Below, piece by piece: positions 60,689 through 62,650 of a stretch of 62,650 nucleotides of DNA. Position numbers and translations under genes: made by a program. Location of the stretch: assembly GCA_009691785.1 (NCBI GenBank), contig SIAM01000007.1, positions 1 through 62,650 on the forward strand, written 5' to 3'. The notes under the pieces are model-generated. The model did no database searches. It had not been told where the DNA came from and was given only the letters and a program-made list of their open reading frames with translations. Origin of the DNA: Phycisphaerales bacterium (GTDB taxonomy: Bacteria; Planctomycetota; Phycisphaerae; Phycisphaerales; SM1A02). Position 1 is the first letter of the stretch, and the number at the start of each line of letters is the position of its first letter.

Positions 60689-61198
60689 TTATTCCTGCTG
60701 TCGATTGAATCCAATCTTGCGCTTTGGCTTCTGAATGGGCGGCAACAAAAGCGGCAGAAGTTTTTGATAGACATCTCGAAGCGCCGCGTCATGCGCAAAG
60801 ATGGATTGATCTATCTCCGCCAACCGTTTCAGAATGCTGGCGTTGGCGGAAAGTTCCTCGCGCATTTTCACAAACGCACGAATAATGCCAAGACTCATTT
60901 GCACTGCCCGTGCACTGTTTAGAACACTGGCCGCTTGCAACGCCCCGTGTTCAGTAAAAACCAAGACGCTATTTGAAAATTTCAACGAAAACAAGGGTAT
61001 CACAGATTGTGATACCCTCATTATTTCCGCACGATTAAGGGTAAATGCAAACTCTACGGGAAAGCGGTCCGCGTTGCGCTTGACAGCTTGATTCAGCACC
61101 CGCGTTTGCACGCCGTACAACTGCGCCAAATCCGAATCAAGAAGAACCCGTTGCCCGCGGACAATCAAAATGCGAAGTTGATGCGCGTGTGAATCCAT
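60689..61198 (-). CDS. ORF6N domain protein (phage antirepressor-type DNA-binding)
   Basis: 169 residues. The N-terminal half is an ORF6N domain: ILIVRGQRVLLDSDLAQLYG, VQTRVLNQAVKRNADRFPVE and FAFTLNRAEI, then VFTEHGALQAASVLNSARAV. The C-terminal half is helical, ending in a basic, proline-rich PPIQKPKRKIGF. ORF6N proteins are typical of phages, mobile elements and toxin-linked loci, where they bind DNA. The ATG at 61198 is preferred to the frame start at 61228. A perfect 9-bp inverted repeat lies inside the coding region. Compared with its neighbours the gene is AT-richer, consistent with horizontal acquisition. Confidence 0.8.
   Translation of the reverse strand: MDSHAHQLRILIVRGQRVLLDSDLAQLYGVQTRVLNQAVKRNADRFPVEFAFTLNRAEIMRVSQSVIPLFSLKFSNSVLVFTEHGALQAASVLNSARAVQMSLGIIRAFVKMREELSANASILKRLAEIDQSIFAHDAALRDVYQKLLPLLLPPIQKPKRKIGFNRQQE
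60995..61017. repeat. Perfect inverted repeat inside the ORF6N gene
   Basis: GGGTATCAC (60995-61003), five bases, GTGATACCC (61009-61017). A 9-bp perfect palindrome in coding sequence at codons for MRVSQSVIPL. It could be an autoregulatory binding site or an attenuating hairpin, or chance. Confidence 0.6.
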
Positions 61199-61231
61199 TG
61201 CCGCACCGTATCGCCGAGGCCCGACCACTTT

Positions 61232-61257: not shown

Positions 61258-61380
61258 ATTCTTTAAATTGAAATCAGCCTGTCGCGCAAATTCCACTGCA
61301 CGACGCCGCTTGCCACGCGTGACTTCGCGCCACCCACCACGCCGCTTGAAGCAACCGATTTTATACCAGCCATGGGATTT

Positions 61381-61493
61381 GCCGTGGTTCGCTTCGCAGC
61401 CAACTGGTCCGGGCCGTGGTTCGCTTCGCAGCCAACTGGTCCGGGCCGTGGTTCGCTTCGCAGCCAACTGGTCCGGGCCGTGGTTCGCTTCGC
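61381..61493. repeat. 32-bp tandem repeat, 3.5 perfect copies
   Basis: The unit, starting GCCGTGGTTCGCTTCGCAGC and continuing CAACTGGTCCGG, occurs at 61381-61412, 61413-61444 and 61445-61476, with a 17-base partial copy to 61493. Copies are identical. The unit length is not a multiple of three, so successive copies are read in different frames and it is unlikely to encode a repeat protein. It begins 18 bases after the avd-like stop on the minus strand. Confidence 0.9.
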
Positions 61494-61511
61494 CCTATCG
61501 GCAGTGGTTCT

Positions 61512-61868
61512 TCATGCCAAATGCCGCGCCACCTGCAGGCGCCTATTGGCAATGTCCAAACTGCGCGCGCGATCACCACCGCGTGCATATTGCGCGTGCA
61601 ACAATTCTTCCAGCACATCCATGTGCGCCATTTCTATGCGCGAACCAAGTCCGTAGCGCACCGTGCGTGGAAACTTTCCAACCTTGGGAATAATCCAGCG
61701 CAACAAATCGCTGGCCAACACCACGGCGGCGGGCTCGCTGGCTCGCCCGCCGGCAGTGACTGGATGAGAGACTTTGGTTTTTTGCGCCACTGGAATGTGC
61801 AGTTTTTCGGCGGCCAAATCTGCTGGCGCAGATTTGGCCGCGTCTTTGTTCTGGCTTTGTGGTTGCAT
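61512..61868 (-). CDS. avd: Avd-like four-helix-bundle DGR accessory protein, apparently shortened
   Basis: About 118 residues. After a polar leader the protein shows VVLASDLLRWIIPKVGKFPR, TVRYGLGSRIEMAHMDVLEE and LLHAQYARGGDRARSLDIAN, then RRLQVARHLA. This is the Avd/bAvd pattern (DLl.WllP...KFPR..R..LG.Ri......LE.L..A.Y.r). Avd forms a basic pentameric barrel that binds the DGR reverse transcriptase and template RNA. The protein stops where the family normally continues with a last helix (..LAhDL....IGrmlGGW), and a 32-bp tandem repeat begins just after, so it may be truncated. Frame opens at a TTG (61892); the ATG at 61868 is chosen. It follows the target gene by about 110 bases. Confidence 0.75.
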   Translation of the reverse strand: MQPQSQNKDAAKSAPADLAAEKLHIPVAQKTKVSHPVTAGGRASEPAAVVLASDLLRWIIPKVGKFPRTVRYGLGSRIEMAHMDVLEELLHAQYARGGDRARSLDIANRRLQVARHLA

Positions 61869-61943
61869 GAACGCGTTTACTTTACCTTGCAATTTTGCGC
61901 AGTGACAGAGAGGTAAAAGTGAAAGGGTAAAAGTAAAATAGAA

Positions 61944-61978: not shown

Positions 61979-62650
61979 CTACGGATTCTTCGCGGGCGGC
62001 GCCACATATTCCAACGGATTCTTCGCGACACGGAAGCCGATGCCGTTGCCGCGGTAGTCGCAATCGCTGTAGCTACGGAACGACGAGCGGCAGCCGAAGG
62101 AGAAGCCGCCCCAGCCGCCGCCGCGCCGCACGCGGTACGAACCTGACGAAGGTCCTGCTGGGTCCGTAGATGGGCTTGTGCTGTAATACGTACTTCCATA
62201 CCAATCATTGCACAACTCATACACATTGCCCGACATGTCGTACATACCAAACGCATTGGCGGCTTTGCCTGCAACGGGCTTTGTTCCATGAGGTGAATTG
62301 TTACTGCTGTACCACGCAATGTTTCCAAGCAACCCTTCATCATTGGTGCCGTTGGGGTAGCCAGGCATGCTGTGAAACGCAGTTGTTGTTCCGCCTCGGC
62401 AGGCGTATTCCCACTCCGCTTCGCTAGGTAAGCGCAAACCTGTTGCAGTGTTAAAGCCAGCAATGTCATTCCAACTTACTTGCTCAACAGGGTTGTTGGC
62501 ATTGCCACTGAAATAGCTTGGATTGCTGCCCATTTTGGCTTCCCACTGCGCTTGCGTTACTTCGGTCTTACCCAAATAGAACGCCTTGCTTAGCGTCACT
62601 TGGTGATTGGGACTCTCATCGGGATAGCAGTCGTGACTATCAGACGCACT
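61979..62650 (-). CDS. Formylglycine-generating-enzyme-fold protein, probable DGR target (5' end outside window)
   Basis: 223 codons are visible; the frame runs open through the window edge. FGE-sulfatase motifs are in order: YLGKTEVTQAQWEAKMGSNP, NNPVEQVSWNDI, LRLPSEAEWEYACRGG, KAANAFGMYDMSGNVYELCN and a C-terminal YRVRRGGGW..GFRVA. This C-type-lectin-like fold is a common display scaffold for diversity-generating retroelements, whose variable region is the last part. Here the GGGW to GFRV stretch shows adenine-mutagenesis features (see the separate entry). Catalytic cysteines of true FGE are not evident, so ligand binding is likelier than sulfatase maturation. An Avd-like gene follows on the same strand. 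Confidence 0.85.
   Translation of the reverse strand, partial: SASDSHDCYPDESPNHQVTLSKAFYLGKTEVTQAQWEAKMGSNPSYFSGNANNPVEQVSWNDIAGFNTATGLRLPSEAEWEYACRGGTTTAFHSMPGYPNGTNDEGLLGNIAWYSSNNSPHGTKPVAGKAANAFGMYDMSGNVYELCNDWYGSTYYSTSPSTDPAGPSSGSYRVRRGGGWGGFSFGCRSSFRSYSDCDYRGNGIGFRVAKNPLEYVAPPAKNP
62024..62137 (-). other. Candidate DGR variable region (VR)
   Basis: In reading frame, 18 candidate variable codons (W+6: GGC GGC TTC TCC TTC GGC; one TTC after CRSS; seven: AGC TAC AGC GAT TGC GAC TAC; four: GGC AAC GGC ATC) all end in C except one T, as expected from AAC/AAT template codons after adenine mutagenesis. The intervening fixed codons (CGC GTG CGG CGC GGC GGC GGC TGG; TGC CGC TCG TCG; CGC; GGC TTC CGT GTC GCG) contain no adenine at all. 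Spacing 6-1-7-4 equals the known FGE-type DGR pattern (WNNNxxN CRSxN R 7 R NNNN GFRV). The template repeat is not in the window. Confidence 0.75.

Follow-up and report, generated by a model that had tools for sequence, protein, structure and literature searches.

Does the gene at the end of this contig carry the variable region (VR) of a diversity-generating retroelement (DGR), and is that region still being rewritten? The window, by which we mean the whole stretch of 62,650 nucleotides analysed, is the entire contig C13 of a draft genome of 2.19 Mb (77 contigs, 92% complete) from a Phycisphaerales bacterium. Our preferred reading, to which we give a probability of about 0.75, is that it ends in a degenerate DGR locus that was diversified in the past and is now probably frozen (Table 1).

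Table 1 Coordinates of the features at the target locus, numbered from the first base of the window.
Feature	Position	Strand	Details
Shared flank	61295..61516	.	91-94% to G008:C89, G010:C23 and partly G002:C15; starts at the avd break; includes 32-nt repeat copies
avd (accessory variability determinant), truncated	61512..61892	-	Homologous between about residues 47 and 126; lacks the C-terminal part
Inverted repeat, 8-bp stem and 4-nt loop	61944..61963	-	GCTGATTCCTTGGAATCAGC; folding z = -6.0
FGE/C-type-lectin-fold target gene	61979..62650	-	223 codons and stop; last gene of the window; 5' part lost at the contig end
33-nt insertion after the VR 3' end	61982..62014	-	13-bp direct repeat CGCGAAGAATCCG
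VR core, 33 codons	62027..62125	-	RGGGWGGFSFGCRSSFRSYSDCDYRGNGIGFRV; 13/13 template-Asn codons C-ending

The stretch that raised the question, 62024-62137, lies close to the end of the domain with the fold of formylglycine-generating enzyme (FGE) and reads YRVRRGGGWGGFSFGCRSSFRSYSDCDYRGNGIGFRVA on the minus strand. All of its variable codons between TGG and GGCTTC are NNC or NNT, as the first-pass annotation had described, although we count 17 of them and not 18. The fixed codons between them lack adenine in the minus-strand reading, and this contrast is indeed local, with an A fraction of 0.27 upstream in the same gene. The annotation derived the variable codons from AAC or AAT; this holds for 13, which align with AAC codons of real template repeats (TRs), and fails for the last, TGC, which is CCC at the same place in the genus consensus and is therefore not a product of adenine mutagenesis. 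Three others in the VR, GAT, GAC and ATC, also contain A. Upstream in the gene, only 53 of 175 codons end in C, so that 13 of 13 would arise by chance with a probability of 0.30^13 = 1.6e-7, and no run of 13 upstream codons holds more than 8. Across the whole window, 101 frames of at least 150 codons are free of stops, and none of their 30,676 runs of 13 codons ends in C throughout, a rough yardstick because the VR codons are not consecutive.

We compared the VR with templates from other genera of the family, which are heterologous, none coming from its own genus. Against the closest of ten, the TR of G177, it differs at 25 of 33 A sites and 9 of 66 other sites (p = 1.4e-9), and the excess at A sites was found with all ten TRs compared of the 12 seen (p < 2e-5). 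The substitutions are concentrated at template-A positions, as in a DGR target. As a negative control we used C16, the genome's second full-length FGE gene, in which 6 of 14 corresponding codons end in C. It also showed an A-site excess (27 of 33 A sites, 29 of 66 other sites, p = 2.7e-4), because FGE proteins vary at these sites in any case; the weight of the argument therefore rests on the low number of non-A differences (9/66 against 29/66) and on the C-ending codons.

A search of 61 genomes with the target gene gave matches in 23, those of G008 (9 matches) and G002 (5 matches) being the closest. Of the 16 genus genomes, 9 yielded readable VR-like gene ends, some of them without the codon pattern. 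We assembled a comparison set of 25 genes, 23 of the genus and 2 from other genera of the family; in 10 of these all 13 variable codons end in C, and in the others 5 to 12 do. Flank divergence lay between 0.1 and 0.6 in 251 of 253 pairs. Among these 251, the first and second positions of variable codons differed by 0.678, 0.677, 0.699 and 0.688 in the flank bins 0.1-0.2, 0.2-0.3, 0.3-0.4 and 0.4-0.6, and the third positions by 0.16-0.32 across bins. Variable positions are saturated in each flank-divergence bin above 0.1. The other two pairs point in opposite directions. G002:C61 and G008:C87, from two species, have flanks that are 6.3% divergent and differ by 73% at the variable positions and by 3.5% in the constant codons of the VR. 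G012:C101 and G008:C51, also from two species, have identical variable positions beside flanks that are 3.2% divergent; this VR is unchanged since the species split. The two loci (L069 and L063) share the same VR amino acids with synonymous changes and inserted codons, and their shared VR is a diversified variant that has become fixed. Whole-codon insertions relative to template length occur in the VRs of L062, L061, L069, L063 and L073. Such insertions are not usual products of DGRs.

Of the 57 constant bases of the VR, 4 are changed in the window relative to the genus consensus; other genus genes carry 1 to 13 changes, and four of the 25 genes (two in G008, one each in G002 and G010) carry none. 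A synonymous-only comparison of VR homogenisation gave 17.4% upstream and 3.6% in VR constant codons when pooled over 45 pairs from 10 genes chosen of the 25; the pairs are non-independent and single-pair P values range from 0.007 to 0.92.

Complete cassettes exist in other genera of the family, in which we found DGRs with an FGE target, avd, reverse transcriptase (RT) and template. Counted at E <= 1e-10, 18 of 181 family genomes, from 10 of 45 genera, hold an RT relative, and the 20 RT loci include 12 with a template-like repeat and 11 with avd. In G020, from another genus, the RT is followed by the template repeat RGGSWNNNSNNCRASNRNNNSPGNTNNNIGFR, and the contig begins inside a VR; no avd was seen at this RT locus, which is not among the 11. 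Its RT, aligned with Bordetella phage brt along 99% of the query, shows 34% identity and carries IGNLTSQ, which we take to be a DGR-type RT motif. Four loci that contain a TR together with its VR served as controls: 20/29, 18/31, 14/32 and 23/29 of their A sites differed, and 0/70, 3/68, 0/67 and 1/67 of their other sites. On two G020 contigs (L077 and L078; G020:C59 and C61), one starts inside a VR and the other breaks inside a VR at its start, as if population variation in the VR had split the assembly. The sequence of the G127 locus also occurs, without a difference over 3843 bases, in a public MAG record labelled Singulisphaera sp. GP187, a planctomycete name.

The reading of 62024-62137 as the VR of a DGR target with a history of diversification is well supported. 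The first-pass annotation had held that the gene is, or recently was, diversified. Its past tense stands: differences from relatives fall at template-Asn codons with a third base that is mostly C, and the family has DGRs with homologous FGE targets, an RT and an adenine-rich template. The present tense is not supported, and diversification is probably not taking place now, given that neither RT nor template was detected in the genome, that avd is truncated and that the VR carries non-A changes and an insertion. That annotation had also named two outcomes that would together, and only together, refute it: no template-like copy in the genome, and differences between relatives that are not concentrated at template-A positions. 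We found no such copy in the 92%-complete draft, and the relatives' differences are concentrated at these positions.

Downstream of the VR, the insertion and the shifted hairpin point to decay. At the place of the 33-nt insertion, 11 of 14 genus loci compared have a stop codon; L061, L062 and L065 continue with other sequence. The inverted repeat that follows resembles the hairpin found after DGR targets, and its exact 20-mer is present at 5 of 16 loci compared (the window, L057, L058, L059 and L070); no such hairpin follows the VR end of G020 (folding z -0.35). Measured from the CCG that stands at the VR end, it lies at 51 nt instead of the 18 nt seen in G008:C8, a shift that the insertion accounts for. 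For phage DGRs PMC3240598 gives a distance of 4-34 bp, a range that the repeat here exceeds, and it reports that longer insertions reduced target function in BPP-1. The hairpin could alternatively be a terminator.

The avd remnant has the target gene on one side and, on the other, the position expected for RT and template. It matches NCBIfam NF033474 (DivGenRetAVD, 3.6e-8) over profile positions 8-70 of 104 (63 positions) with 33.7 bits, below the whole-protein cut-off of 80, as expected of a fragment; the open reading frame has no Pfam match. It shares 89% amino acid identity over 74 residues with the avd beside the G177 RT, and breaks off after residue 126 (at 61516), with homologues running 36-51 residues further. 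Pairwise dN of 0.16-0.32 and dS of 1.4-2.8 with four homologues indicate that avd was conserved over most of the divergence time. We did not find avd in G008, G010 or G002, the three genomes that share the flank. The sole other avd match in the genus, in G007 (E 1e-4), is antisense to a peptidase-like frame (product named by eye) and was rejected as spurious. Head-to-tail copies of a 32-nt repeat occupy 61381-61493, near the avd break, with matching sequence in three genus mates, and an ORF6N-domain protein (PF10543, 1.5e-24) is encoded nearby at 60689-61228 on the minus strand.

These features fit the following course of events. Mutagenic retrohoming would have replaced the AAC codons of a template with NNC in the C-terminal part of an FGE/C-type-lectin-fold protein. 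The cassette would once have run in the order FGE target, avd, RT and template repeat, and a deletion starting inside avd would have eliminated the RT, the template and the remaining part of avd. We infer such a deletion as the cause of the loss; the 32-nt repeat may have mediated it. The VR is probably no longer rewritten, since its 4 changes in 57 constant bases approach the flank rate (11% to G008:C8) and the insertion has shifted the hairpin, and we take it to be frozen at present.

Could an engine persist elsewhere? In the window's own genome, a search with RVT_1 at E values up to 1 returned nothing, a search with a family RT protein at E values up to 0.1 found no RT, and neither a DGR-clade RT nor a template near-identical to the VR was found in this draft. 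Template searches of the genome by blastn with the VR, by blastn with a family TR and by adenine-rich patterns found none; the only blastn match of the VR was the VR itself, which dismissed a second DGR-like copy. As further targets in the genome we rejected C16, which is without the codon pattern, and C23, with a partial FGE match. The candidate at G000:C19:14105-14720 (L080) is a broken SUMF-like gene in which no VR was seen; it lies near a contig end and has stops in all three frames. Across the 16 genus genomes, a family RT protein gave a single match (E 0.06, with four stops), and RVT_1 was found in one, G014, whose RT we rejected as the engine because it is without the DGR-type motif and G014 is without a target-gene match. 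A template-pattern search of the genus returned 6 matches, one of them a known VR; the other 5, together with 8 weaker blastn candidates, were read and showed no Asn-rich FGE-like frame, the candidate at G000:C11 having an Asn-rich frame of another kind. A 27-base VR pattern proved too loose, its backward control being commoner in 15 of 16 genomes. An RT or template could still lie elsewhere, as the draft, at 92% completeness, is split into 77 contigs and the target gene runs off the contig end.

The strongest alternative, although an unlikely one, is that a complete DGR outside the draft continues to diversify the target in trans, the local avd being the leftover of a duplicated cassette. PMC10907252 reports that incomplete loci of Thiohalocapsa PB-PSB1 are active in trans. 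Genus mates carry several target genes, 9 in G008 and at least 4 in G002, with VRs that differ at variable positions. The four VRs without changes at constant bases come from three species and have identical constant codons despite flanks that differ by 26-29% (the G002 gene against both G008 genes), as if one template had been copied. At a matching chromosomal spot, G008:C89 and G010:C23 differ at 11 of 13 variable residues and no avd was found at either, though the downstream flank is shared with the window, which suggests that VRs were rewritten in trans without a local cassette or that both cassettes were lost late. Assembly breaks would also help to hide an engine: 5 of 20 RT matches lie less than 1 kb from a contig start, and four genus target matches begin within 10 bases of one. 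Against this stand the searches above, in which the only genus RT was that of G014, a family DGR RT matched nothing better than E 0.06 and template candidates were known VRs or, among those checked, had no Asn-rich FGE-like frame. Recent retrohoming should moreover have overwritten, at least in part, both the non-A changes and the insertion.

A quite doubtful extension is that the whole genus keeps families of variable proteins, with up to nine or more members, and that a visiting RT, not resident in the chromosome, rewrites their VRs from a plasmid, phage or island that is missing from the genome bins. If so, repertoire and engine would be inherited separately, and the window would hold a target abandoned by its engine. 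No viral contig matches the genus-type template pattern, and searches for a phage or plasmid source gave seven viral RT relatives of at most 41% identity, with all 165 phage records and the best 5000 plasmid records below 60%.

It is very improbable that no DGR was involved and that the pattern arose in a multigene family through diversifying selection and gene conversion. The numerous paralogues and the codon insertions of some VRs would suit such a family, but protein selection does not produce C-ending codons at 13 of 13 positions in 10 of 25 genes while the first and second positions are randomised, a partial avd adjoins the target, and elsewhere in the family homologous targets have an RT and a template as neighbours.

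The target itself belongs to a fold known from DGR proteins. The solved structure nearest in sequence (2y3c, 2.8e-32) is that of Treponema denticola variable protein 1, TvpA, which we take to be a DGR variable protein and target; TvpA was also the top fold match for an AlphaFold model (pLDDT 81), and the structure matches listed include the human enzyme mutants C336S and C341S. Pfam, structural relatives and model agree on a C-type-lectin-type fold, as expected for display of a DGR variable region. That this is an ordinary formylglycine-generating enzyme with an odd-looking C-terminus is the least probable alternative, for in spite of a Pfam FGE-sulfatase match of 1.2e-44 the alignment with the Streptomyces coelicolor enzyme places a Cys opposite only the second of two neighbouring cysteines, presumably the catalytic pair, and the closest solved protein is TvpA. 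Searches of genome and viral contigs with the target gene returned broad FGE relatives, and records near to the window's genome may be absent from these collections. The degenerate-locus reading places the target with TvpA and other FGE-subtype C-type-lectin targets, with which it shares fold and position of the variable region; it differs in its broken cassette, and its relatives seem to carry dockerin-like and thrombospondin-like repeats beside the domain (judged by eye), in contrast to TvpA-type targets. The protein is probably a secreted binder of variable ligands.

A DGR locus with a broken cassette is of a known kind: degenerate and remote loci are described for Thiohalocapsa (PMC10907252). 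As in strain PB-PSB1, targets here sit at loci with RT or template missing or broken; that strain keeps one complete locus per class, whereas we found none in the window's genome or the 16 genus genomes. With the DGR of Bordetella phage BPP-1 (brt, avd and a hairpin after the VR; PMC3240598) the locus shares a putative hairpin of 8-bp stem and 4-nt loop after the VR, and differs in having an FGE target on a cellular contig, a CTTG loop instead of GRNA and a stem that is not GC-rich. Our literature search recognised no published description of an FGE-avd-RT-TR family, and the family in these bacteria, together with a genus that has many targets and no detectable RT, seems to be new. A large DGR survey states that targets remote from an RT would escape its detection (PMC8144416). 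The target in the window, beside a truncated avd, is recognisable from its codon pattern. The genus offers a natural series, from rewritten VRs through a VR unchanged between two species to a target with a dead cassette, and this series allows one to ask what becomes of a diversified repertoire after its engine is lost.
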